A DNA stretch of 64,000 bases. Origin: Phaeobacter sp. 22II1-1F12B. Its GTDB lineage: Bacteria > Pseudomonadota > Alphaproteobacteria > Rhodobacterales > Rhodobacteraceae. The position numbers were made by a program, and so were the translations under genes. How positions within the stretch are numbered: the first letter of the stretch is position 1; each line of letters starts with the position of its first letter. The stretch spans positions 248,001 to 312,000 of the forward strand of contig NZ_AQQP01000007.1 in assembly GCF_002210165.1 (NCBI RefSeq), given 5' to 3'. Shown here one piece after another: positions 4,955 to 62,809 of the stretch. The notes beneath the pieces were generated by a model. That model searched no databases, was not told the origin of the DNA, and saw nothing but the letters and a program-made list of their open reading frames with translations.

Positions 4955-6382
4955 ATGGTTGGTGAAAACAAATTTTTCGACGAGATGAGCGGCCACAACG
5001 GCACTGTCCGGGACGCCTATGCAGCCTATCACGACTGGTTTGCAGAGCAGGACGCCGAACGTCTCACAAAGAAATCGCAGGACGCCGAGACATTCTTCCG
5101 GCGAACCGGCATTACCTTTAACGTCTATGGCCAGAGCGAGGCGCAGGAGCGGCTGATCCCCTTCGATCTGGTGCCGCGCATCCTTGCGCAACGGGAATGG
5201 ACGAAGCTGGCAAAAGGCATCGAGCAGCGGGTCGCCGCGATCAACGCCTTTCTGCATGACATCTATAACCGTCAGGAAATCCTGCGGGCCGGACGCGTCC
5301 CCAAGCACCTGATCGCCGGGAACGAAGCCTTCCTACCGCAAATGCTGGGCTTCAGCCCTCCGGGCCAAGTCTACACCCACATCGTCGGCACCGACATCGT
5401 TCGCACCGGCGAAGGCGATTTCTTCGTTCTCGAAGACAATGCGCGGACACCCTCGGGCGTGTCCTACATGCTGGAAAACCGCGAAACGATGCTCCAGATG
5501 TTCCCGGAGCTGTTCGCCAAGATCAAGGTTCAGCCGGTCAGCGACTACCCCAAGAACCTGCGTCGCTCGCTTGCGGCCTGCGCGCCCAGTTCGGCCGGGT
5601 CGAAGCCGACCATCGCCGTTCTGACACCGGGCATCTACAACTCGGCCTATTTCGAACATTCCTTCCTCGCCGACCAGATGGGCGCGGAACTGGTCGAAGG
5701 CCACGACCTGCGCGTGGTCGACGGCCATATCGCGATGCGCACGACCCAAGGCTACAAGCGGATCGACGTGATCTATCGCCGGATCGACGACGATTTCCTC
5801 GACCCGCTGACCTTCAATCCGGAATCGATGCTGGGTGTCCCCGGCATCATGGATGTCTACCGCGCGGGCAATATCACCATTGCAAACGCACCCGGCGCAG
5901 GCATCGCGGATGACAAGGCGATCTATTCCTACATGCCGGATATCGTCGAATTCTACACCGGCGAAAAAGCCATCCTGAAGAATGTCGAGACATGGCGCTG
6001 CGGCGAACCCGGCGCGCTTCAATACGTGCTCGACAACCTTAAGGATCTGGTTGTCAAAGAGGTGCACGGCTCGGGCGGCTACGGCATGCTCGTCGGCCCT
6101 GCCGCCAGCAAGAAAGAGCTGGCCACCTTTGCCGAAAAGCTCAAGGCTAAGCCGGGCAATTACATCGCTCAGCCTACGCTCTCGCTCTCCACGGTCCCGA
6201 TATTCACGGAATCGGAACTGGCGCCGCGCCACGTCGATTTGCGGCCTTTCGTGCTGGTATCGCCACAGGGCATCAATATCGTCCCAGGCGGCTTGACCCG
6301 CGTCGCGTTGGCCAAAGGATCGCTTGTCGTCAACTCGAGCCAGGGCGGCGGCACCAAGGACACCTGGGTGCTGGAGGACTGA
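4955..6382 (+). CDS. Circularly permuted ATP-grasp protein (COG2308 type)
   Basis: A 475-residue cytosolic protein of the circularly permuted ATP-grasp family. Characteristic blocks are the N-terminal GTVRDAYAAYHDWF, the ARTPSGVSYMLENRE segment, VLTPGIYNSAYFEHSFLADQMG, IDVIYRRIDDDFLDP, and the C-terminal GSGGYGMLVGP that should contact ATP. These proteins are predicted amidoligases that use ATP to form amide or peptide bonds; the substrate is unknown. It opens a four-gene operon (alpha-E protein 4 nt downstream, then transglutaminase, then Anbu). The N-terminal half of the protein at 25123 is its paralogue. The start at 4955 matches the usual family N-terminus although its ribosome-binding site is weak. 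Confidence 0.9.
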   Translation: MVGENKFFDEMSGHNGTVRDAYAAYHDWFAEQDAERLTKKSQDAETFFRRTGITFNVYGQSEAQERLIPFDLVPRILAQREWTKLAKGIEQRVAAINAFLHDIYNRQEILRAGRVPKHLIAGNEAFLPQMLGFSPPGQVYTHIVGTDIVRTGEGDFFVLEDNARTPSGVSYMLENRETMLQMFPELFAKIKVQPVSDYPKNLRRSLAACAPSSAGSKPTIAVLTPGIYNSAYFEHSFLADQMGAELVEGHDLRVVDGHIAMRTTQGYKRIDVIYRRIDDDFLDPLTFNPESMLGVPGIMDVYRAGNITIANAPGAGIADDKAIYSYMPDIVEFYTGEKAILKNVETWRCGEPGALQYVLDNLKDLVVKEVHGSGGYGMLVGPAASKKELATFAEKLKAKPGNYIAQPTLSLSTVPIFTESELAPRHVDLRPFVLVSPQGINIVPGGLTRVALAKGSLVVNSSQGGGTKDTWVLED

Positions 6383-51450: not shown

Positions 51451-52476
51451 TTACTCGCCCGCAGCAGCCGTTGCCGTGGCAAGCCAGCCTTCATAGGTCT
51501 CGCGGTTCTCTTCGATCCACGTGGCGGCAATGCTCTCGATGGCGCGGTCAGAATTGTCTTCCTTCATCGCACCTTCCCAGTTCGACCAAGTCTGAAGCGG
51601 CCATTGAACGGTGGAAACCAGCGTTTCGACAACCGGGTTCTCGGCAAGGAAGTCACGGTTCGCAGCGATCTCCCAGTTCCACGAACCGGTTGCCATGCGG
51701 CAGGACGGCGCGTCCCCGGCACAGCCGACCACGCCTTCGACAAGGTGGCCGTTCGGCACGCTGACGCTCTCGGGCGCAGAGTCATGCGGGATCGGCAGCC
51801 AGACCACGTCCTCTCCCGGTACCAGAACCTGCGTCACGAAAGAGGGGCTCCACGTGTAGAACAGGATCGGTTCACCCTGACGATAGCGGCTGAAGGTCTC
51901 GGCCAGCAGCGGTTCGTACTTGGCGCGCACCGACTGAACCGTGTCCATCAGGCCGAAATCCTCAAGCTGATAGTCCACCACGTCGCCGCAGCTCCAGCCC
52001 GGATCGCAGTTCATCAGGTTTGCCTTGCCATCGCCGTCCGAGTCGAACAGCGCCGCGATTTCGGGATCTTTCAGCTGGCTGACATCGGTGATGCCGTATT
52101 CCTCGGCGGTCGCCTTATCGATCATGTAGCCATTGATGCCACCGCCCTGAATCGTGCCTTCGCCCAGCAGCGCGACGTCATCTTCGACGGTGATATACTG
52201 CATCTGGCGCTGGGGCATGTTCACGTCGCCCGAAACATCCAGATCGCCCTGCATCGCTGCCTGAAGAAAGGCCGCCGTGCCAACAGTGGTCAGTTCGACG
52301 TCATAGCCAAGATCGGTCAGCGCCTGCATCAGGATCGCGTCCTGAATATATTGCGCGCCAAGACTGTCGCTACGCGAAAAGCGCACCGTGGTGCCTTCGC
52401 CCGGCAGGGACTGGGCAAGCACCGGGGCAGCAGCCATGCAGGCCGCGCCAAGGGATAAGAGGAATTTCCGTTTCAT
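51451..52476 (-). CDS. proX: Quaternary-amine ABC substrate-binding protein (ProX-like)
   Basis: A 341-residue exported protein (signal peptide ending PVLAQ) of the ProX/OpuAC family: GTTVRFSRSDSLGAQYIQDAIL at the start, MNCDPGWSC containing the cysteine pair seen in E. coli ProX, and FYTWSPSFVTQVLVPGEDVVWLPIPH. Several Trp residues could form the aromatic cage for a quaternary ammonium group. It ends the proV-proW-proX operon. The ligand could be proline betaine, glycine betaine, choline or, given the neighbouring catabolic genes, trigonelline. Confidence 0.88.
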   Translation of the reverse strand: MKRKFLLSLGAACMAAAPVLAQSLPGEGTTVRFSRSDSLGAQYIQDAILMQALTDLGYDVELTTVGTAAFLQAAMQGDLDVSGDVNMPQRQMQYITVEDDVALLGEGTIQGGGINGYMIDKATAEEYGITDVSQLKDPEIAALFDSDGDGKANLMNCDPGWSCGDVVDYQLEDFGLMDTVQSVRAKYEPLLAETFSRYRQGEPILFYTWSPSFVTQVLVPGEDVVWLPIPHDSAPESVSVPNGHLVEGVVGCAGDAPSCRMATGSWNWEIAANRDFLAENPVVETLVSTVQWPLQTWSNWEGAMKEDNSDRAIESIAATWIEENRETYEGWLATATAAAGE

Positions 52477-52571: not shown

Positions 52572-53519
52572 TCAGTTCTTGCTATCGGCAGGCGTGCTTG
52601 TCGCGGTGTCGGCACCCCGGCCCCTGCCGCCCATGATCATCCGCCCGGCCCCCGCAAGCCGCGCAAAGGGCGAGCCCTTCTTGGGATCACGCTCGGCCAC
52701 GGCCTGTGTCAGCCGGTCGAGGATGATCGCCATCAGCACGATACCGATGCCCCCGATGGCGGCGCGGCCCACGTCGAGCCGGCCAAGACCCTGAAGCACC
52801 ACAAGCCCCAGACCTTCGGCCCCGATCATCGCCACGATCACCGACATCACCATCGCCATCAGAACCGTCTGGTTGAGACCGCCAAGAATGGTCGGCAGCG
52901 CCTGCGGCAACTGGATCTCCCAAAGCAGCTGCCGATCCGTCGCGCCAAAAGCAATGCCTGCCTCGATCAGCTCACGGTCGACGCCACGGATGCCGATATT
53001 GGTGAACCGGATCAGCGGCGGCACGGCAACCACGATCACCGCCACCGCGCCCGGCACGGTGCCCACGCCGAACAGCATCACCACCGGGATCAGGTAGACA
53101 AAGCTGGGCGTGGTTTGCATCACGTCAAGGATCGGTCGCACGATGCGCCATGCCCTGTCACTGCGGGCACAAAGGATCCCGATGGGGATACCGATGATCA
53201 CGCAGATCACGATGGCCGTCGCGATCAGCGCCAGCGTCGTCATCGTCGGCTCCCAGATGCCAAGCAGCAGGATCACGAAGAGAGCGACGACAGTGAACAC
53301 ACCGGTGCGCCTGCCCGCCAGCCACAGCGAGAGCAGCGCAAAGATCAGGATGAACAGCAGCGGCGGCGTTGCCTGCAAGCCGCCTTCGATCAGGTTCAGA
53401 AGTTCGTCAATCGGCCAGCGCACGGTGCGAAAGGCCGGACGGAAATGCAGGGCGATCCATTCGATGGCAGTCTGAATCCACCGGTCCAGCGGGATGTAAA
53501 CTGTATCGGCATCAAGCAT
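52572..53519 (-). CDS. proW: Quaternary-amine ABC permease (ProW-like)
   Basis: A 315-residue permease with the ProW pattern: an N-terminal amphipathic part (DRWIQTAIEWIALHF), six or seven helices and the EAA-type loop ELIEAGIAFGATDRQLLWEIQLPQALPTILGGLNQ. ATG 53519 overlaps the ATPase gene by 8 nt and starts the recognisable family N-terminus LDADTVYIPLDRWI; a longer frame to 53612 is rejected. Confidence 0.9.
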   Translation of the reverse strand: MLDADTVYIPLDRWIQTAIEWIALHFRPAFRTVRWPIDELLNLIEGGLQATPPLLFILIFALLSLWLAGRRTGVFTVVALFVILLLGIWEPTMTTLALIATAIVICVIIGIPIGILCARSDRAWRIVRPILDVMQTTPSFVYLIPVVMLFGVGTVPGAVAVIVVAVPPLIRFTNIGIRGVDRELIEAGIAFGATDRQLLWEIQLPQALPTILGGLNQTVLMAMVMSVIVAMIGAEGLGLVVLQGLGRLDVGRAAIGGIGIVLMAIILDRLTQAVAERDPKKGSPFARLAGAGRMIMGGRGRGADTATSTPADSKN

Positions 53520-54639
53520 GAGCGCGGCCTTTATTCTGGGGTTCCGACGTACCGGCGATCCCCGCAAGCAACGCGGATTCCGTAATTTTTCCCTGGAAGC
53601 GACCGCTGTCATCGACGACGGCCACCGGGCCTTTACGACCTGCCGCCTTGGCCGCGATGTCCAGAAGCACCGTGTCCGGGCTGACGCTGATGAAATCAGG
53701 TGAGGGCGGATCGCTCTCGTTTCCGCGCCAGCCGGTCACCCGCCCATCGCCATCGATGACGAAACCGGCGCCGCCCGGATGATCGACAGGCTCCGCCGTC
53801 ATCACCGAGCTAGCATCGAAGAGCCGCGCCCGGTCGACATTGCGGGTAAAGGCGGCCACGTATTCATGCTGCGGATCAAGCACGATTTCCTGCGGGGTGC
53901 CGTCACGGATCACCGCGCCATCGGCCATGATCGCGATCTTGCTTCCCAGTCGCAGCGCTTCCTGGAAGTCATGTGTGATGAACAGCACCGTTTTGTGCAG
54001 CGAATGCTGAAGCCGCAGCAGTTCGTCCTGCATGTCGGTACGGATCAGCGGGTCGAGCGCGCTGAATGCCTCGTCCATGATCAGCACATCCGCCTCGGTC
54101 GCCAGCGCCCGTGCCAGCCCGACCCGCTGGCGCATCCCGCCCGAAAGCTCTCCCGGCAGGTGCGAGCCCCATGACGACAGCCCGACGGTTTCAAGCATCT
54201 CTCCGGCCTTCCTGTAGCGCTCGGCCTGCGGTACCTTGCGCAGCTTTAGGCCAAAGGACACGTTGTCGATCACCGTCTGGTTGGGCAGCAGGCCAAAGTT
54301 CTGGAACACCATCGACATCCGCCGACGACGGATTTCACGCAGCGTGCTCTGGTCGCATGTGGTGATGTCCTCGCCATCGAGCAGAATCTGCCCCGCATCG
54401 GGTTCAAGGATGCGGTTGACGCAGCGCGCCAGCGTCGATTTGCCGGACCCCGACAGACCCATGATGACCGAGATCGACCCCTTGGGGATGCTCAGCGATA
54501 CGTTGTTGACCCCCAGAACGGCACTGGCCTCGTCCAGTATCTCGGCCTTGCTCTTGCCCTCGCGCACCAGCTTGAGCGCCTCTTGCGGATGGCTGCCGAA
54601 AATCTTGTACAGATCCCTGATTTCGATCCTGTTGGTCAC
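53512..54639 (-). CDS. proV: Quaternary-amine ABC ATPase (ProV-like)
   Basis: A 375-residue ATPase starting MTNRIEIRDLYKIFGSHPQEAL, with Walker A GLSGSGKST, signature LSGGMRQR, LIMDEAFSALDPLIR, and a C-terminal CBS-like regulatory region (DISVSPDTVLL-type strand; GPVAVVDDSGRFQGKITESALL). ProV/OpuAA ATPases use CBS domains to sense ionic strength. It is the first gene of proVWX and is divergent from the hydrolase-pucR unit; the region between holds a TTCCTAT-N7-AGGAAA site. Confidence 0.9.
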   Translation of the reverse strand: MTNRIEIRDLYKIFGSHPQEALKLVREGKSKAEILDEASAVLGVNNVSLSIPKGSISVIMGLSGSGKSTLARCVNRILEPDAGQILLDGEDITTCDQSTLREIRRRRMSMVFQNFGLLPNQTVIDNVSFGLKLRKVPQAERYRKAGEMLETVGLSSWGSHLPGELSGGMRQRVGLARALATEADVLIMDEAFSALDPLIRTDMQDELLRLQHSLHKTVLFITHDFQEALRLGSKIAIMADGAVIRDGTPQEIVLDPQHEYVAAFTRNVDRARLFDASSVMTAEPVDHPGGAGFVIDGDGRVTGWRGNESDPPSPDFISVSPDTVLLDIAAKAAGRKGPVAVVDDSGRFQGKITESALLAGIAGTSEPQNKGRAHA

Positions 54640-54642
54640 GCT

Positions 54643-54694
54643 GCATTAACCCCTGTCAGTTCAGTTCATCGCGGATACTGCAATTGATTAATGC
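54643..54694. promoter_or_regulatory. Long-spaced inverted repeat GCATTAA/TTAATGC upstream of proV
   Basis: GCATTAA (54643-54649) and TTAATGC (54688-54694) are exact reverse complements 38 nt apart, starting 4 nt upstream of the proV ATG. It may be a looped operator, but the AT-rich promoter region makes chance occurrence possible. Confidence 0.3.
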
Positions 54695-54713
54695 GAGGTG
54701 CGTCTTTTCTGTC

Positions 54714-54733
54714 TTCCTATGTTTCGAAGGAAA
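54714..54733. promoter_or_regulatory. Operator-like site A (TTCCTAT-N7-AGGAAA)
   Basis: TTCCTAT, seven bases and AGGAAA, centred on the inverted repeat TTCCT-N9-AGGAA. It lies 65 bp upstream of the cysteine hydrolase ATG and 74 bp upstream of the divergent proV ATG. The same bipartite sequence recurs at 57220-57239. Confidence 0.7.
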
Positions 54734-54798
54734 GCCGGTTGGTATTCTCCGACTATTTGCATCATGATCCGCGCAGAATGCGCCGGTAGCGAGAACAG

Positions 54799-55452
54799 AT
54801 GACACCACCCCAAAACCCCCTGCCCTTGCTGCCTGAACCGGCGCTGATCGTCGTGGATATGCAGAACGATTTCGTCCATCCGGGCGCGCCGATGGAGGTC
54901 GTCGGCGCGCGCGCTATCCTGCCCGGTCTGGGCCGTTTGATCGCCGCCTTTCGCGCCGCCCGCAGACCCGTTGTTTTCCTGCGTTACATGGGTAATCGGC
55001 GCTATGATCACCTGGCCGAAAAGTTCAGCTGGATCACCACGATGGCGCCCCCGGTTCGGGCCTGTGAACCCGGCCACCTCCGCCACTTTGACGACGGGGT
55101 AGAACGTGAAGGGTTTGCCATCGTCGAAAACCTTGCCCCGGCGGCGGGCGAGATCGTGATCGACAAGACCTATTACAGCGGCTTTCACGAAACCGCTCTG
55201 CACACGCGTTTGCAACAGACCGGTGTTCAATCCTTGTGCATCACCGGGCTGATCACCGAGATGTGCGTCGAGGACACCGCCCGTCACGCGGTCCATCACG
55301 GCTATCCAACGGTGATCCTGCGCGACCTTGTCGCCAGCAGCGATCCTCAGGCCGCCGCTGCCGCACTGGGGGCCTTCGACAAGAACTTTGGCTGGGTTGC
55401 GGGTTCCGATGACGTGGTTGCGAAACTGCAAGCGCCCGCGGCCGGGGAATGA
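54799..55452 (+). CDS. Cysteine hydrolase family protein (isochorismatase fold, RutB-like)
   Basis: A 217-residue isochorismatase-fold amidase. The catalytic Asp is in ALIVVDMQNDFVHPGAPM, Lys in VIDKTYYSGF and Cys in ITEMCVEDTARHA, the standard Asp-Lys-Cys triad; GLITEMCVEDT is typical. Relatives hydrolyse amide bonds, such as RutB in pyrimidine breakdown and various formamide or carbamoyl hydrolases. It starts the transcription unit with the PucR regulator (4-nt gap) and is preceded by operator-like site A. Confidence 0.85.
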   Translation: MTPPQNPLPLLPEPALIVVDMQNDFVHPGAPMEVVGARAILPGLGRLIAAFRAARRPVVFLRYMGNRRYDHLAEKFSWITTMAPPVRACEPGHLRHFDDGVEREGFAIVENLAPAAGEIVIDKTYYSGFHETALHTRLQQTGVQSLCITGLITEMCVEDTARHAVHHGYPTVILRDLVASSDPQAAAAALGAFDKNFGWVAGSDDVVAKLQAPAAGE

Positions 55453-55456
55453 CAGG

Positions 55457-57235
55457 ATGACCGACACGCTACAGTCTGATGGCGAGATCAAGCAGGGCCT
55501 CGACCGGTTTCGCCAGATCTCGGAAATCTCGAAACTGATTAACGAGGGGATCGACCTCAACGACCTGCTGACCCGCCTGACCGAAGCCGTCTGCCGCCAT
55601 TCCGACTGGTCGATCAGCAGTGTTCTGGTGATGGACGAGGCGCGGCAGATGTCGGTCTCGGCGGCGCGCTACGATCCGCTCTTGACCTTCAAGCGGGAAG
55701 GCGCGGGTTTTGAATGGGACCTGATGGGCAGCCCGATCCTCGAGATCGTCTCCAAGGGGCGTCCGATGATCATGCAGGATGCCTCGGAACAGGAAAAATA
55801 CCCCGCATTCCAGAGAGATGCGCAACTGCGCGGCTATCGCACCGTTGTCCTTGTGCCCCTGCGGTTTCCCGATGAACAGGGGCGACCCATCGTGTTTTGC
55901 GTACTGGCGGACGAGGTGGTGGATGTTTCAGAGACCGAGCTGAGCTTTCTGCAATGTCTCGCCGATCTCGCCGATATCGCGGTACGCCGGATGCAGATCC
56001 TGCGTCAGGAAACGGCCGAGGCGGAGCGGCTGCGCGAGATCACCGTCAACCTCACCTCGGCCTTGACCACCACGCTCGATCCCGACCATGCCAGCGACCT
56101 TTACGGCGGCTTGTCGCGGTTGTTCACGACCGGTTGGTTCGCCATCGACCTGACCACAGGGCAGATGCTGTTCGACCGGGCCGGGGCGTCGCCACTGTTG
56201 CAGAAGATGTGCGACCGTCTGCCCGAATCCGTGGTGCGCACCGCGATGAAAGCGGATGCCGCGCGGGGCGATCAGACCGTGCGCCTGCTGGTCGAGGACG
56301 AAACCCTCTCGGCCCTGATGCGCCCGCTGGTGATTGATGGCACCCGCGTCGGCGCGCTCTTCCTGCTGAACGTCGAAACGCTCGCCGCAAGCGAGCAGGT
56401 CGCCGCGGATGCCGGGCGGCTGGCGCTTTCCTCGCTGATCCTGCGCAATTACATGGCCTTCAAGACCCGCGAACATGCCTCGCGTCGGCTGATCGGCCAG
56501 CTTTGCCAAGGTGACCTTCGGGATCTGGGAGAGCTGCGCGAAGAAGCGCGGCTTCTTGGCTTTGACCTCGACCGTCCGATGTACCTGATCGGCCTGCGCA
56601 GCCTTGGCGAGGACCCGCTCGAAGAGGATTCGCACAGTTTCGTCCAGCGCAGTGCGCAGACGCTTTTTGGGCAGGTGCTGTCCTACAAGGACGGGCGCGA
56701 GGTCTATCTGCTGGTGCTGGATGACGACACGATCCGCGATGGCAAGCTCCGCGACCGGTTTCTGCAACGTATCCGCCCGATCATGCCGGAAACCGTGGCT
56801 GTCATGTCCGACCGGATCGACCGGTTGCAAGAGGTCGCCCCCGCCCGTGAAGCCTGCCGCTGGAACCTGCAGGTGGCCGAGGCGATGGGCGCCCGCGACT
56901 GGGTTACCCGGCGCACGGTGGGATCCTTTCCCTCGCTCATGGCCTCGGTAAGCCACCGGGTCGCGGACCAGTTCCTCAGCGATACAATCGCCCGCGTGGC
57001 CGAAAACGGATCGGGCAAGGGCGACACGGTTCTGGAAACGCTCGAAGCCTATCTTGCAACCGGACGGAGACCGCAGGAAACGGCCGACCTGCTTGGGATT
57101 CATGTGTCGACCCTTCGCTACCGTCTGGGCCGCATCGCCGAGAAATCCGGCATCGATCTGAACGATCCGGACGAATGTTTCGAGCTGGAACTGGCTTTGC
57201 GCATCCACAAGTTCAGAATTTCCTATCAAAAGTAG
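55457..57235 (+). CDS. PucR family transcriptional regulator with GAF domain
   Basis: A 592-residue regulator. The N-terminal half has a GAF-like sensory domain (LNDLLTRLTEAVCRHSDWSISSVLVMDEARQM to about residue 200). A second, CdaR/PucR-type central region follows. The C-terminal HTH_30 is ETADLLGIHVSTLRYRLGRIAEKSG. PucR proteins activate purine, amine or sugar-acid catabolic genes. It sits between the two groups of catabolic genes, each with the same operator-like site, and so is the best candidate regulator. ATG 55457 is 4 nt after the hydrolase stop. Confidence 0.85.
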   Translation: MTDTLQSDGEIKQGLDRFRQISEISKLINEGIDLNDLLTRLTEAVCRHSDWSISSVLVMDEARQMSVSAARYDPLLTFKREGAGFEWDLMGSPILEIVSKGRPMIMQDASEQEKYPAFQRDAQLRGYRTVVLVPLRFPDEQGRPIVFCVLADEVVDVSETELSFLQCLADLADIAVRRMQILRQETAEAERLREITVNLTSALTTTLDPDHASDLYGGLSRLFTTGWFAIDLTTGQMLFDRAGASPLLQKMCDRLPESVVRTAMKADAARGDQTVRLLVEDETLSALMRPLVIDGTRVGALFLLNVETLAASEQVAADAGRLALSSLILRNYMAFKTREHASRRLIGQLCQGDLRDLGELREEARLLGFDLDRPMYLIGLRSLGEDPLEEDSHSFVQRSAQTLFGQVLSYKDGREVYLLVLDDDTIRDGKLRDRFLQRIRPIMPETVAVMSDRIDRLQEVAPAREACRWNLQVAEAMGARDWVTRRTVGSFPSLMASVSHRVADQFLSDTIARVAENGSGKGDTVLETLEAYLATGRRPQETADLLGIHVSTLRYRLGRIAEKSGIDLNDPDECFELELALRIHKFRISYQK

Positions 57236-57239
57236 GAAA
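57220..57239. promoter_or_regulatory. Operator-like site B (TTCCTAT-N7-AGGAAA)
   Basis: TTCCTAT, seven bases and AGGAAA, overlapping the end of the PucR gene, 66 bp before the flavin reductase ATG. The core is again TTCCT-N9-AGGAA. A further half-site TTTCCT (57242-57247) follows after CA, giving AGGAAA-CA-TTTCCT. Confidence 0.7.
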
Positions 57240-57305
57240 CATTTCCTGCGGCCTCGCAGCTTTCACGGGAGGACCGGGCCAGGCGACCGCCCCTAAGGTC
57301 GATCC

Positions 57306-58343
57306 ATGTCCAATGTGCAATCAGACCGCAGGTCCCCCGTGAGCCCCACCGACGCCGCCCCTTTCGACCCAAAGGCCCTGCGCGCCGCCTTTGGCAGCTT
57401 TGCCACCGGCGTCACGGTCGTGACCACCTATGACAAATCAGGAAGCGCGGTCGGTTTCACGGCAAATTCCTTTACCTCGGTTTCGCTCGACCCGGCGCTA
57501 TTGCTGGTTTGCCTTGGCAAAACATCATCGAATTACGAAACCTTCACTTCTGCCGACCGGTTCGGTGTGAATATCCTGTCTTCCGATCAGACCGACATCT
57601 CGACCCGGTTCGCGACCCGGGGTCTCAAGGACCGGTTTGCCGGGATCGACTGGCAGGCCGTGCCTGATGGCGCGCCACTGATCGAAGGCTGCGCGGCGCG
57701 GTTCGACTGCACGGTACACGAATGTATCGACGCAGGCGATCACGTGATCCTCATGGGCCGGATCGAACGGTTCGACAGCCATGAACGCCACCCGCTGATC
57801 TTCGCCGAGGGCCGCTATCTCGCGCCGATTGACCTCGATACGCCGCAGGTGCGCGGCTCGGTTCGGCTGGGCGCGATTATCACCCATGATGAAGAGATCC
57901 TGCTACGCTCTGACGGCAAGGGAAACTGGCACCTGCCGCTTTCCGGCGCGAAACCGGGCCTGCGCAGCGCGCGGGCCGACCTTGACGGGTTCTTCGCCGC
58001 CGGAGGGGCCGCCATCGACTGGGGGTTCCTGTTTGCGATCTTCGATGGCGACAGCGACGCGGTGCCCGGCAATGCCGATACGCTCGCCTTCTTCCACGGC
58101 GCGCTCGAAGCAGGGGAAGAGCTCCCAAGCCAGTGCCGGCTGTTTCCGATGGATGAGCTGCCGATGGAGGACGTTCCGATTTCGGCCCATCGCGCCATGC
58201 TGCGCCGCTATGTCGATGAACACCGGCAGCAACGGTTCGGGATCTACGTCGATTCCCCCGGGCCCCGTGGCACCGTGCAGCCACTTGCCCTGCGCCCTGC
58301 CCCCTATGCCCGCAATATTCAGGACAAGGAAATCATGCAATGA
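57306..58343 (+). CDS. Flavin reductase fused to a Nudix-like C-terminal domain
   Basis: A 345-residue protein. Residues 20-170 are a flavin reductase of the FMN-binding split-barrel type (LRAAFGSFATGVTVVTTYDKSG; GFTANSFTSVSLDPALLLVCLGKTSSNYETF; HERHPLIFAEGRY), which supplies reduced flavin to a partner oxygenase. Residues 180-330 look like a degenerate Nudix fold (GSVRLGAIITHDEEILLRSDGKGNWHLPLSG) without the REUxEE catalytic box, so it probably binds rather than hydrolyses a nucleotide. Its stop overlaps the aldehyde dehydrogenase start (ATGA). The partner is most likely the luciferase-like enzyme at 59889. Confidence 0.78.
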   Translation: MSNVQSDRRSPVSPTDAAPFDPKALRAAFGSFATGVTVVTTYDKSGSAVGFTANSFTSVSLDPALLLVCLGKTSSNYETFTSADRFGVNILSSDQTDISTRFATRGLKDRFAGIDWQAVPDGAPLIEGCAARFDCTVHECIDAGDHVILMGRIERFDSHERHPLIFAEGRYLAPIDLDTPQVRGSVRLGAIITHDEEILLRSDGKGNWHLPLSGAKPGLRSARADLDGFFAAGGAAIDWGFLFAIFDGDSDAVPGNADTLAFFHGALEAGEELPSQCRLFPMDELPMEDVPISAHRAMLRRYVDEHRQQRFGIYVDSPGPRGTVQPLALRPAPYARNIQDKEIMQ

Positions 58344-59848
58344 CGCGGTTCACCCCCGAGGCGCTGGAAAACACCTGCCTTCCGATCTTTATCGACAACG
58401 AATTTGTCACCTCTCAGGGTAAGCCCTTTGCCAGCTACGATCCGGCGACCGGCCAGCAATGGTCGGAAATCGCGGATGCCACCAGCGATGAGGTTGACCG
58501 CGCCGTGCGTTCGGCCCGCCGCGCGATGGAGAACCCTGCGTGGCGCAACATGTCGCAAAGCGACCGGGGCGCGCTGCTGTACAAGCTTTCGGAACTGATC
58601 CAGCGCGACACGGATCGCCTGTCGCGGCTTGAAACCCGCGACAATGGCAAGCTGCTCAAGGAAATGACGGCGCTCACGCAAGCGGTGGCGACCGGCATGC
58701 GTTATTTCGCAGGCATGGCCGACAAGATCGAAGGCACCACGATCCCGGTCAACAAGCCCGATATGCTGAATTTCACCCTGCGCGAACCGATTGGCGTGAT
58801 CGCCGCCATCGTGCCGTGGAATTCCCCGCTGTTGCTGCTGAACCGCGCCTTTTCTCCGGCCATCGCTGCAGGCAATGCGATGGTGGTCAAGCCGTCGGAA
58901 CATGCCTCGGCCTCGCTTCTGGCCTTTGCGGAACTGGTAGCCGAAGCGGGCTTTCCCGCCGGTGTTTTCAACGTGGTCACCGGGCACGGCCAAAGCGTCG
59001 GCGACGCGCTGGTGCGTCATCCCGAGGTGGACAAGATCGACTTTACCGGCGGGCCGGAGACAGGCCGCATCATCGCCGGAAGCGCGGCGGACAACCTGAC
59101 GCCCTCCATCCTCGAGCTTGGAGGAAAATCGCCCAATATCATCTGCGCCGATGCCGATCTGGATCGCGCCGTGACCGGCGTGATTTCGGGCATTTTCGCC
59201 GCCGGGGGACAGACCTGCGTCGCAGGTTCACGCTGCCTTGTGCATGACAGCATCTATGATGAGGTGATCGACCGCCTTGTCGCCCGCACCGCCGAAATCC
59301 GGATCGGTGCGCCCGACGATGACGCGACCCAGCTTGGCCCGCTCGCGCTCTGGTCGCAGGTGGAAAAGGTCGGCCGCTTTGTCGAAGGCGCCAAGACCGG
59401 CGGCGCAGAGCTGCTGGCAGGCGGTGACCGGGCACCCGGCATGGGCGACGGCTGGTATGTTCAACCGACGATTTTCGGCAATGTCAGCAACGAAATGGAT
59501 ATCGCACGCAACGAGATCTTTGGCCCCGTGCTGGGCGTTATGCGCTACAGCGACGACGAGGACATGATCGCCAAGGCCAATGACACCCGCTATGGGCTGG
59601 CCGCCGGTCTCTGGACCAATGACATGGAGCGCGCGATGCGCTTCATGGGCCGGATCAATGCCGGGATGGTCTGGGTCAACACCTATCGCAGCCCCTCGGT
59701 CATGGCCCCTTCGGGCGGCTACAAGGACTCGGGCTACGGCAAGCACAACGGCTTTGCCGCGATCAACGAATTCACCCGGATCAAGACCGTGGTGATCGAC
59801 TACTCCGGCAAGACCCACGATCCTTTCGTGATGCGGGTCCAGAAGTGA
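58340..59848 (+). CDS. Aldehyde dehydrogenase family protein
   Basis: A 502-residue ALDH with IVPWNSPLLLLNRAFSPAIAAGNAMVVKPSEH (Asn and Lys of the active site), the catalytic Glu in LELGGKSPNI and Cys in GGQTCVAGSRCL, and EIFGPVLGVMRYSD. The start overlaps the flavin reductase stop, so it belongs to the same operon. In a trigonelline-type pathway it would oxidise the cyclic hydroxybutyrolactone (hemiacetal) ring-cleavage product to the succinate derivative (TgnC role); this assignment is inferred from the gene set. Confidence 0.87.
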   Translation: MTRFTPEALENTCLPIFIDNEFVTSQGKPFASYDPATGQQWSEIADATSDEVDRAVRSARRAMENPAWRNMSQSDRGALLYKLSELIQRDTDRLSRLETRDNGKLLKEMTALTQAVATGMRYFAGMADKIEGTTIPVNKPDMLNFTLREPIGVIAAIVPWNSPLLLLNRAFSPAIAAGNAMVVKPSEHASASLLAFAELVAEAGFPAGVFNVVTGHGQSVGDALVRHPEVDKIDFTGGPETGRIIAGSAADNLTPSILELGGKSPNIICADADLDRAVTGVISGIFAAGGQTCVAGSRCLVHDSIYDEVIDRLVARTAEIRIGAPDDDATQLGPLALWSQVEKVGRFVEGAKTGGAELLAGGDRAPGMGDGWYVQPTIFGNVSNEMDIARNEIFGPVLGVMRYSDDEDMIAKANDTRYGLAAGLWTNDMERAMRFMGRINAGMVWVNTYRSPSVMAPSGGYKDSGYGKHNGFAAINEFTRIKTVVIDYSGKTHDPFVMRVQK

Positions 59849-59888
59849 TCAGTCGGACAGGTATAGAATTTCAGGACAGGAGCAGGTG

Positions 59889-60962
59889 ATGAGGTTTTCC
59901 ATCGCAGTGAACATGGGTCGTCTCGACCCGACGACGGATATGCGCCAGATCGCGGACGAAGCGCTGGAGCTGGTGAAAATCGCCGATCAGGGCGGGTTCG
60001 ACATCGTCTGGACCGCCGAGCACCACACGATCGAGCTGACCGTTTCCCCGAACCCGTTCCAGTTGCTCAGCCACTGGGGCGCGCATACCAAGAACATCCG
60101 CCTTGGTACGGCGGTTGTCGCCGCGCCGTACTGGAACCCGATCCGGCTGGCCGGTGAGGCCGCGCTTTGCGACATCCTGACCGATGGCCGCCTTGAACTC
60201 GGGCTTGGCCGGGGCGCCTACCAGTATGAATTCGACCGCATGGCGGGCGGCATGCCCCAGCAGGAAGGCGGCAAGCACCTGCGCGAGATCATCCCCGTGG
60301 TCAAGGCGCTCTGGGCCGGGGAATATGCGCATGAGGGCGAGCTATGGAATTTCCCGGCCACCACCAGCGTGCCGAAACCGTTGCAGAAATCGGTGCCCAT
60401 GTGGATCGCCGCGCGGGATGAGAATACGTTCCAGTTCGCCGCCGACAATGGCTGCAACATCATGTCCACCGCGCTGCGCAAACCCTTTGCCGAGGTCGTG
60501 GACCTGCAACGCAAGTTCGACGCGGTGACTAAGGATCTGCCCAAAGGCCAGTTGCAGCACGCAACCCTGCGCAGCACCTGCCTGTTCGAAGACAAGGCCG
60601 GCGAGGATACCGCCTATGAATCCGTCATCAACTATGGCCGCGCCTTCGAGAACCTCTTCAAGGGCACCGGCGAGGTCAAGGACGGCTATCCCGAGGCGGT
60701 GGATTTCGAGACGGTTGCCAACCGTGACGAATATGACCGCGAAAGCCTCTTGGAAAACATGATGCTTGGCAGCCCGGAGCAGGTGATCGAAAAGCTCGAA
60801 CGCTACAAGGCAGCGGGCGTCGATCAGTTCATCTACGGCGCGTCCTTCTTCGTGCCGCACCAGAACGCGCGCCGCTCGCTGGAGCTGTTCTGCGACAAGG
60901 TGATCCCGCATTTCCGCAAGCAGGAAAACGCTGCCAGCCCCGAAATGGCAGGCGCGAAATAA
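59889..60962 (+). CDS. LLM class flavin-dependent oxygenase (luciferase-like)
   Basis: A 357-residue bacterial-luciferase-fold enzyme: MRFSIAVNMGRLDPTTD, IVWTAEHHTIE, NIRLGTAVVAAPYWNPIRLAGEAALCDILTDGRLELGLGRG and GSPEQVIEKLERYKAAG. Such enzymes use reduced flavin from a separate reductase and cleave C-C, C-N or C-H bonds with O2, as in RutA, TgnA and pyridine degradation. ATG 59889 has GGAG 6 nt upstream and is preferred to the GTG at 59886. With the reductase at 57306 it forms a probable two-component oxygenase. Confidence 0.87.
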   Translation: MRFSIAVNMGRLDPTTDMRQIADEALELVKIADQGGFDIVWTAEHHTIELTVSPNPFQLLSHWGAHTKNIRLGTAVVAAPYWNPIRLAGEAALCDILTDGRLELGLGRGAYQYEFDRMAGGMPQQEGGKHLREIIPVVKALWAGEYAHEGELWNFPATTSVPKPLQKSVPMWIAARDENTFQFAADNGCNIMSTALRKPFAEVVDLQRKFDAVTKDLPKGQLQHATLRSTCLFEDKAGEDTAYESVINYGRAFENLFKGTGEVKDGYPEAVDFETVANRDEYDRESLLENMMLGSPEQVIEKLERYKAAGVDQFIYGASFFVPHQNARRSLELFCDKVIPHFRKQENAASPEMAGAK

Positions 60963-61019: not shown

Positions 61020-61799
61020 TTGCGGACAACCGACGACCTGATACATTACACGCGCGAAGGCACCGGCGATCCGCTGGTGCTTGTTCATGGTGTGGGGGCC
61101 AATCTAGCAAGCTGGGACGGGGTCGCCGAAAGGCTGAAGGGTGAGTTCGACATCCTGCGATCCGACCTGCGCGGCCACGGAGAGTCCGCCCGCATCGACA
61201 GCCCGATCACAATCGACACATTTGCCGAAGACATCCTGCGGGTCATGGACGAACAAGGTGTCGAGAGCGCGCATCTCGCTGGATTTTCACTTGGCGGGCT
61301 TATCACGCAGCGGCTGGCCGTGGGCTGGCCCGACCGGTTCCGGCGGATCGTGATCCTTTCGGCGGTCGCTGGCCGCACGCCCGAGGAACGTGCCAAGGTG
61401 ACAGACCGGCTCGGCATGATCCGCGACGGCGGCATGAAAGCGATCACCGGGGCCGCACGCGATCGCTGGTTCACCGAAGGTTTCGCCCGCGACAATCCCG
61501 ATCTCATCACCCGCCGCATCGCCGAGATGGAAGCCGCCCATGTGCCCTCCTACCTCGAGGCCTACCGCGTGTTCGGGCAGACCGAACTGGTCGACACGCT
61601 TCACCAGATCAAACATCCGGCGCTTATCATGACCGGCGAGTTGGATCAGGGTTCCAACCCGCGTATGGCGCGGACCATGCACGAATTGATTGACGGATCA
61701 GAGCTAGAGATCCTCCCCGGGCTCAAGCACAGCGTTTTGCTCGAAGCATCCGACCTGATCGCGGAACGCATTGCCGCGTTCCTCAAGAAACCACTCTGA
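61020..61799 (+). CDS. Alpha/beta hydrolase
   Basis: A 259-residue alpha/beta hydrolase. The oxyanion-hole region is LVHGVGANLASWD, the nucleophile Ser is in GFSLGG, the acidic residue is in TGELDQGSN and the catalytic His in GLKHSVLLE. The start is TTG (61020) with AAGGAGA 6 nt upstream. In the trigonelline pathway the fourth enzyme (TgnD) is such a hydrolase, which splits the N-methylformamido-methylene succinate; here the role is inferred from the company it keeps. Confidence 0.85.
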   Translation: MRTTDDLIHYTREGTGDPLVLVHGVGANLASWDGVAERLKGEFDILRSDLRGHGESARIDSPITIDTFAEDILRVMDEQGVESAHLAGFSLGGLITQRLAVGWPDRFRRIVILSAVAGRTPEERAKVTDRLGMIRDGGMKAITGAARDRWFTEGFARDNPDLITRRIAEMEAAHVPSYLEAYRVFGQTELVDTLHQIKHPALIMTGELDQGSNPRMARTMHELIDGSELEILPGLKHSVLLEASDLIAERIAAFLKKPL

Positions 61800-61817: not shown

Positions 61818-62201
61818 ATGGACAAGGCGCTCTACGACAAGGGACTGGCGCAGCGAAAGGCCACGCTCGGGGCCGAATACGTGGAAAAGTCGCTGGGCAA
61901 TGCGACGGAGTTCTCCAAGGACTTTCAAAGCTTCATCACCGAATACTGCTGGGGTGCTGGCTGGGGCGATGAAACCCTGCCGCCCAAGACGCGGAGCATG
62001 CTCAACATCGTGATGATCGCGGCGCTGAACCGGATGCATGAATGGGAGCTGCATTTCCGTGGCGCACTGCGCAATGGCGTGACGCTGGATGAAATGAAGG
62101 CGATGATCACCCAGATCACCATCTATTGCGGCGTGCCGGTGGGCGTCGAATGTCATCGCATCGCCAACCGCGTGCTGACCGAACAGGGCGACGAGATATG
62201 A
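61818..62201 (+). CDS. Carboxymuconolactone decarboxylase family protein (PcaC-like)
   Basis: A 127-residue all-helical protein with the PcaC pattern: MDKALYDKGLAQRKATLGAEYVEKSL at the start, PPKTRSMLNIVMIAALNRMHEWELHFRGALRNGVTLDEM. It has no CxxC motif, so it is not an AhpD peroxidase. It is translated just after the hydrolase (18-nt gap), and its stop overlaps the next gene (ATGA). In this operon a decarboxylase or a substrate-binding role is possible. Confidence 0.8.
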   Translation: MDKALYDKGLAQRKATLGAEYVEKSLGNATEFSKDFQSFITEYCWGAGWGDETLPPKTRSMLNIVMIAALNRMHEWELHFRGALRNGVTLDEMKAMITQITIYCGVPVGVECHRIANRVLTEQGDEI

Positions 62202-62809
62202 GCGACGTCCATATCCGCAAGATCGTCGACTATACCGAAGACACGCTGATCGAAGGTGGCCGCGAGGTCGCGACACCGGTCCGCATGGCCGCCTGCGCCG
62301 CGGTCATCCGCAACCCGTGGGGAACCGATTATGTCGAGGATCTTCAGCCGCAGATCATGGCCCATGCAGTCGCGCTCGCCGATGTGCTGGTGCCGCGCCT
62401 GATCGCACTGATGGGCGGACCCGACCGGATCGAAGCCTTTGGCAAGGCCGCCGTCACCGGCACCTCGGGCGAGGTGGAACACGCCGCCGGGCTGATCCAC
62501 ACGCTGCACTTCGGCAATGCCTACCGGATCGCGGCCGAGGCGGATTCCTTCCTGCCTTTCACCAACAAACGCGCCGGGGCGGGCACGGCCATCACCATCC
62601 CGATGACCCACAAGTCGCTGGAAAACAAAGGCGCGAGAACGCATTTCGTGACGCTGGAATTCTCGATCCCCGATGCGCCCGCCCATGACGAAATCGTCGT
62701 GGCCCTTGGAGCGTCAAGCGGCGGTCGCCCGCATTCCCGCATCGGCGACCGTTTTCAGGACATGAAACTTATGGGAGTCGATCAGGCGGGTCGTCCCCTT
62801 CCCGCGTGA
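62198..62809 (+). CDS. DUF1185 (amino acid synthesis family) protein
   Basis: A 203-residue protein of the DUF1185/AA_synth family (PF06684 type): IRKIVDYTEDTLIEGGREVATPVRMAACAAVIRNPW at the start, GTSGEVEHAAGLIHTLHFGNAYR, and IPMTHKSLENKGARTHFVTLEFSI. These are conserved proteins of unclear enzymology, commonly beside flavin-dependent oxygenase and amidohydrolase genes. The ATG overlaps the CMD gene stop. It ends the operon; a 9-bp stem-loop follows. Confidence 0.8.
   Translation: MSDVHIRKIVDYTEDTLIEGGREVATPVRMAACAAVIRNPWGTDYVEDLQPQIMAHAVALADVLVPRLIALMGGPDRIEAFGKAAVTGTSGEVEHAAGLIHTLHFGNAYRIAAEADSFLPFTNKRAGAGTAITIPMTHKSLENKGARTHFVTLEFSIPDAPAHDEIVVALGASSGGRPHSRIGDRFQDMKLMGVDQAGRPLPA

Follow-up and report, generated by a model that had tools for sequence, protein, structure and literature searches.

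Genes and sites at the locus

The DNA analyzed here is a stretch of 64,000 nucleotides from Phaeobacter sp. 22II1-1F12B (contig NZ_AQQP01000007.1, positions 248,001 to 312,000 of the forward strand), which we call the window, and our subject is a pair of matching operator-like sites in a cluster of transport and catabolic genes that includes the gene for a PucR-family regulator. An earlier note on the sequence had described the two sites by the pattern TTCCTAT-N7-AGGAAA and proposed that one regulator, most simply the PucR protein, controls uptake and both catabolic units. A pattern scan of the window placed site 1, TTCCTATGTTTCGAAGGAAA, at 54714-54733 (core 54714-54732) and site 2, TTCCTATCAAAAGTAGGAAA, at 57220-57239 (core 57220-57238), with the same spacing in both and neither assigned to a strand, just as the note had them.

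Site 1 lies between two divergent units. On its one side, on the minus strand, are the proVWX genes for a ProV-like betaine transporter ATPase (53512..54639; above the proV subfamily cut-off, TIGR01186, and below the ProV equivalog cut-off), a ProW-like permease (52572..53612) and a ProX-like substrate-binding protein (51451..52476; above the ProX equivalog cut-off, with 351.8 bits against 215). The permease is assigned by its 59% identity to an Azospirillum gene annotated as a proline/glycine betaine permease, and by this similarity rather than a family scan of its own. On the other side, on the plus strand, are the genes for an isochorismatase-family cysteine hydrolase (54799..55452; from family scans, in which the RutB cut-off was not reached) and, 4 bp after its end, the PucR-family regulator (55457..57235). 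Site 2 extends over the final codons of pucR, stop codon (57233-57235) included, and precedes an operon on the plus strand that begins with the flavin reductase gene and runs through AA_synth. According to family scans, it encodes a flavin reductase with a C-terminal extension outside its Pfam match (57306..58343), an aldehyde dehydrogenase (58340..59848), a luciferase-like flavin monooxygenase (59886..60962), an alpha/beta hydrolase (61020..61799), a carboxymuconolactone decarboxylase-family protein (61818..62201) and an AA_synth (PF06684) protein (62198..62809).

The distances claimed in the note, 65 bp from site 1 to the hydrolase ATG at 54799 and 66 bp from site 2 to the flavin reductase ATG at 57306, were confirmed, and so was the placement of site 1 in front of the divergent proVWX genes, the proV start codon (GTG, 54639) being 74 bp from the site on its other side. 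The statement that the sites flank pucR needs two corrections: pucR is not flanked by itself, since site 1 precedes the isochorismatase-family gene upstream of it, and site 2 overlaps the end of pucR.

The full pattern, with its 13 defined bases, occurs exactly at sites 1 and 2 and nowhere else in the genome of the strain (5,533,619 bases). Within the window, four matches with two or fewer mismatches were found against 0.39 expected, one of the four being site 2 read on the opposite strand, and none of 100 shuffles reached four. Both sites also fit the inverted repeat TTCCT-N9-AGGAA, the core that is common to relatives. This core occurs exactly at 9 places in the genome (9 per strand, against 3 per strand for a reversed control), and the 7 copies other than the two sites all lie within frames of at least 342 codons, as judged by frames open from stop to stop and not by gene calls at those places. 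Two of these copies, at positions 2210 of contig C27 and 4156 of contig C60 (L050 and L053), have similar flanks and 429-codon open frames, and perhaps belong to a repeated gene. The scan for further sites, a check that the note had proposed, thus did not turn up many such sites elsewhere. Taken over the whole analysis, the two matching sites are very probably real operators, and the note was largely right.

The PucR-type regulator

The PucR protein of the window has a C-terminal HTH_30 domain (PF13556; 78.2 bits, cut-off 27), preceded by a GGDEF-like domain (PF17853; 28 bits, cut-off 24.5). In the Pfam scan it had no match to PF07905, the N-terminal PucR domain, and GAF_2/GAF is found there instead. 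PF07905 is the Pfam entry given for the PucR family in an excerpt of PMC7652997, which also states that about half of the family has the GGDEF-like domain. Because of the GAF domain and the missing PF07905 match, we regard the protein as an HTH_30 regulator of the PucR type and not as a PF07905 PucR. It is the only strong HTH_30 match in its genome (81 bits); the three other candidates score 22.6-25.2 bits, and one of them reaches the cut-off only together with its neighbours (27.8).

As summarized in the same excerpt (PMC7652997), the PucR-type regulators that have been studied are mostly activators, and PutR, AdeR and GabR bind inverted-repeat operators of 17 bp, 24 bp and 21 bp, respectively. 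The B. subtilis PucR both activates and represses (PMC7652997), and its target site is not palindromic. The window protein resembles B. subtilis PucR, PutR, AdeR and C. glutamicum GabR in its C-terminal HTH_30 and GGDEF-like domains, the latter being absent from GabR itself; it differs from known regulators of the family in having an N-terminal GAF domain and no PF07905 match. The candidate operator is likewise an inverted repeat of similar length, a likeness of repeat type and length and not of base-by-base sequence, and the gene adjoins its likely catabolic targets, as in the known cases.

Homologous clusters

A contig of Heliomarina baculiformis (L009) carries a PucR that is 96% identical to that of the window and keeps both sites. 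Since the aligned stretches are 97% identical throughout, this conservation is weak evidence; we rejected it as evidence by itself and left L009 out of all counts.

More distant clusters were found with the window PucR as the query. The search of the same family added one genome (39% identity; matches in 2 of 295 genomes, own included), that of the class five (30-31%; 6 of 385, own included) and that of the phylum two (30%; 3 of 398, own included); among plasmid records, 60 had PucR matches (24-31%), of which 20 were examined. The sample comprises 28 clusters outside the genus, with PucR proteins about 24-39% identical to that of the window; L021 and L027, the two ends of one Azospirillum cluster, were counted once, and 14 of the 28 carry annotation. 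PucR is present in all 28 by design, being the search query. Over the 26 clusters in the alignment (L037 and L062 stand outside it) its overall identity to the window protein is 26-38%, and a recognition segment reading HVSTLRYR or HVTTLRYR (HV[ST]TLRYR) is found in all 28.

Homologues of the flavin reductase, aldehyde dehydrogenase, monooxygenase and hydrolase lie beside pucR in 24 of the 28 clusters, and fewer of them in L042, L043, L045 and L046. Of 11 window proteins, L042 and L043 share only PucR and the monooxygenase, and L045 and L046 only PucR and the flavin reductase (plus a similarity to the transporter ATPase), yet all four have the operator described below. The AA_synth gene is divergent from pucR in many relatives, there often with the same operator upstream. 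A Shinella locus (L023:562-3994) adjoins its main cluster with a second set of flavin reductase, LLM monooxygenase and aldehyde dehydrogenase genes. As to the C-terminal extension of the window flavin reductase (57825-58343, about 170 residues), no Pfam match above cut-off was found in it; by eye it may be Nudix-like. In alignments, most flavin reductases of the clusters reach at least residue 317, and those of L044-L046 end near residue 172-183.

Recurrence of the operator

Since six clusters had already been inspected when the 13-base pattern was shortened to the core, counts are given with and without those six. Redundant regions were removed, which reduced the flavin reductase regions from 24 to 22 and the pucR regions from 26 to 25. 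In the 200 bp preceding the gene, the core with one mismatch allowed was found for the flavin reductase in 12 of 22 regions (5 exact) and for pucR in 11 of 25 (5 exact); dinucleotide shuffles of these regions averaged 0.12 and 0.13 and never exceeded 2 in 300 trials. Without the six clusters seen first, the core was still found in 9 of 18 flavin reductase regions and 8 of 20 pucR regions, against shuffle averages of 0.08 and 0.07 and highest values of 1 and 2 in 300. In the full set of regions, the spacer of 9 is the peak among gaps of 0-20. With two mismatches allowed, the spacer of 12 is also high (19 of 22 and 17 of 25 regions), which we read as probably the same sites shifted by three bases, with right halves such as AGGAAGAA.

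A de novo ranking of all palindromic dyads with 5-base halves and gaps of 0-20, in which the window and the six first-seen clusters were left out, placed TTCCT-N9-AGGAA first of 21,504 dyads, with 17 of 38 regions; the 99.9th percentile was 6 regions, and the runners-up (CTTCC-N11, TCCTC-N10 and TCCTC-N7) overlap the top dyad. Sites with one mismatch or none are also concentrated in promoter DNA, taken as 280 bp about the start of each pucR, flavin reductase and AA_synth gene (monooxygenase in L042 and L043): 31 lie in 18,783 promoter bases and 13 in the 538,857 other bases of the 28 clusters. In all, the operator is present in the equivalent promoters of 19 of the 28 clusters with one mismatch or none, and of 27 if two-mismatch sites accompanied by a -10 element are counted. 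The fullest form of the 19-bp inverted repeat that we saw is TTCCTATGATTCATAGGAA. The conservation in orthologous clusters that the earlier note had suggested looking for is thus found outside the genus, and the existence, recurrence and position of the sites are established by the sequence.

We weighed whether the two matches could be a product of chance, or site 2 a terminator at the end of pucR. The pattern had been picked by eye, and site 2, a palindrome located at a stop codon, is weak in the profile model described below. The recurrence in 27 of 28 clusters and the first rank in the de novo test speak against chance, and site 1 precedes genes and ends none; moreover, no terminator-like structure was found at site 2, so the terminator was dropped as a candidate. 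The degenerate match in L015 (below) also straddles a pucR stop codon. We consider chance or a terminator extremely improbable.

A profile model, R1, was trained on 37 sites from other loci, with the window left out. In the genome of the strain the best match that it reported is site 1 (14.2 bits, E 0.42), followed by a place on contig C27 inside a 429-codon frame (12.5 bits); within the window, sites 1 and 2 are its two best matches, in that order (8.5 bits and E 0.39 for site 2). R1 also finds the operator before the flavin reductase gene of L062 (11.2 bits), a locus outside its training sites.

Promoter geometry

The sequence TAnnnT is the best conserved part of the -10 box. It begins exactly 21 nt after the operator (two or fewer mismatches) in 20 of 25 flavin reductase regions, the window being among the other 5, and shuffled regions gave a mean of 0.055 and a maximum of 1 in 200. 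In the cluster of Rhizobium etli CFN 42, for example, the flavin reductase promoter has a two-mismatch operator with the -10 element at 21 nt. On the AA_synth side, TAnnnT stands at 20-22 nt in 9 of 12 sites, and on the pucR side at 30 nt in 11 of 19. If TAnnnT is taken as -12 to -7, the centre of the operator falls near -43 and its right end over -35 in the flavin reductase promoters, which for most relatives would fit the layout of class II activation. In 13 of the 14 annotated relatives, 53-62 bp separate the end of the operator from the start codon of the flavin reductase gene (117 bp in Azospirillum), compared with 66-67 bp in the window, so the spacing pointed out in the note is roughly conserved. 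Many rhizobial loci (within L022-L041) share a second element (for instance TCC...GAAAA...GTAGA) between the operator and pucR, which is perhaps the pucR promoter or a second half-site.

These features bear on the possibility that PucR binds the sites yet represses, and is released by an inducer. The dual action of the B. subtilis protein (PMC7652997, in the excerpt cited above) lends this some plausibility, and the different geometry on the pucR side, with TAnnnT at 30 nt, could serve autoregulation. However, promoters that depend on an activator usually have the operator over -35 and a constant distance between it and the -10, as in 20 of 25 flavin reductase regions, and no sigma-70 consensus promoter was found at 54600-57400. 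Repression is in our judgment unlikely, although it is the least unlikely of the alternatives weighed here.

A regulatory model and its weak points

We consider it highly probable that the PucR-family protein whose gene lies between sites 1 and 2 has them as its operators and would activate the regulon. An oligomer of PucR would bind the 19-bp inverted repeat TTCCT-N9-AGGAA and switch on transcription once it senses a metabolite or the substrate itself, with the GAF domain as a possible sensor. Site 1 would then drive two divergent units, proVWX for uptake and hydrolase-pucR for catabolism and the regulator itself, and site 2 the operon of flavin reductase, aldehyde dehydrogenase, monooxygenase and hydrolase. 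We infer PucR as the binding protein from its being the query of every cluster, from the HV[ST]TLRYR segment constant in 28 clusters and from its being the sole strong HTH_30 protein; control of proVWX is suggested by the position of site 1 in the shared divergent gap and by the betaine-transporter genes that recur in other clusters. The view of the earlier note that one regulator controls uptake and both catabolic units gains support from the recurrent operator beside pucR, with binding by PucR itself, activation, the ligand sensed and proVWX as a target being deduced.

The sites could also be real operators but of another regulator, for example an Lrp/AsnC protein encoded beside several rhizobial clusters, or a global regulator encoded at a distance. 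Of the 14 annotated clusters, 6 (L022, L025, L031, L032, L038 and L039) have an annotated Lrp/AsnC gene as a neighbour; in the other 8 (L021/L027, L023, L028, L029, L035, L036, L037 and L040) the operator is present and no Lrp/AsnC gene is annotated nearby. The sites, moreover, adjoin pucR and often lie within its promoter, and PucR accompanies all 28 clusters, if by design. Another regulator seems to us improbable, more so than repression by PucR.

Several points weigh against activation by PucR through both sites. The argument is drawn from sequence, in which binding by PucR and effects on expression are predicted, and the clusters are not fully independent of one another; 8 of the 28 are counted on a two-mismatch site, which qualifies only through its -10 element. 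The divergent proVWX genes that share a site are seen only in this genus. R1 is not wholly independent of the window, because its sites were picked with the core seen there, and its genome scan scored 150 of 1291 first-look candidates. Its scores are modest; site 2 matches the motif of the relatives weakly, and R1 did not list it genome-wide (E up to 10). For a second model, R2, which joins operator and -10, the best place in the window is a different one (5075-5108); at site 1 it picks up the operator part alone, and site 2 is missing from its window matches. At 21 nt from site 1 the window has TATTTG on the hydrolase side and ATTAAT on the proV side, neither of which is TAnnnT, and no TAnnnT lies at 21 nt from site 2.

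The closest PucR outside the genus (L015, 39%) belongs to a cluster without a clean site, the one exception among the 28. The best match to the full palindrome in its 15.5 kb has 15 of 19 positions and, like site 2, straddles the end of pucR with its stop codon, ahead of the flavin reductase gene; it was equalled in 3 of 5000 shuffles of the 300-bp region, with a consensus chosen after the other loci had been seen. R1 does not list this place; its preferred match in the locus precedes a transporter gene (9.3 bits at 2276).

Because R2 missed the promoters of the window, we make the class II claim for the relatives and not with full weight for the window. The absence of site 2 from the genome-wide list and the failure of R2 are offset, in our view, by the first rank of the dyad in the de novo test.

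Transport, substrate and known pathways

ProVWX-like genes are also found in the clusters of Azospirillum oryzae (L021), Caballeronia SBC2 (L030) and a genome from the phylum search (L062), arranged unlike those of the window, and a ProX gene lies near the cluster of Agrobacterium fabrum C58. Of the 12 annotated Hyphomicrobiales clusters, 10 (L028 and L035 being the exceptions) have instead an amino acid ABC transporter downstream of the operon. Four clusters (L025, L031, L035 and L036) have genes for a succinate-semialdehyde dehydrogenase and an aminotransferase in the vicinity. The cluster is most likely a regulon, under a PucR-family activator, for the uptake and flavin-dependent breakdown of a betaine-like compound.

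The transporters, the nearby dehydrogenase and aminotransferase genes and the two-component flavin oxygenase together suggest that the substrate may be a betaine-type N-heterocycle opened by the oxygenase, by a logic like that of trigonelline breakdown. Besides an oxygenase and a reductase, the tgn genes include a dehydrogenase and a hydrolase. According to an excerpt of PMC8269262, TgnA/TgnB opens the ring of trigonelline, a pyridine betaine. The window cluster has a two-component flavin oxygenase as this oxygenase-reductase pathway does, a likeness of enzyme type, and no Tgn-named family is among the matches listed for the window proteins. In contrast to the trigonelline pathway, the window adds carboxymuconolactone decarboxylase-like, AA_synth and isochorismatase proteins and the PucR regulator.

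The Rut operon is a further point of comparison, since the isochorismatase, alpha/beta hydrolase and flavin reductase of the window match the RutB, RutD and RutF models. The scores, however, are far below the equivalog cut-offs (87.5 of 378 bits for RutB, 56.4 of 238.5 for RutD and 95.4 of 254.8 for RutF), and for this reason we rejected an assignment to Rut pyrimidine-ring cleavage; RutA is not among the 25 of 31 families listed for the monooxygenase. The titles and abstracts that searches on homarine brought up name no such gene cluster, and no report of this operator or cluster was found in searches of the open-licence papers in PubMed Central, which covered titles and the beginnings of abstracts.

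Implications

The wider picture that we regard as probable, with a good deal of reserve, is that a GAF-containing subfamily of PucR-type regulators in Alpha- and Betaproteobacteria, recognizable by HV[ST]TLRYR, shares an undescribed operator, the 19-bp repeat given above in its fullest form, together with a class II layout before the flavin reductase gene. This subfamily would control the flavin-dependent opening of the ring of a betaine-type compound, by a pathway that is widespread and uncharacterised and in several lineages is combined with a ProVWX importer. For this group of PucR-type regulators the operator is defined by sequence and testable, and their regulons may therefore be predictable from sequence. 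The catabolic cluster, apparently uncharacterised and often plasmid-borne, is found in rhizobia, agrobacteria and marine bacteria, and its tie to betaine importers in several lineages would narrow the search for its substrate.

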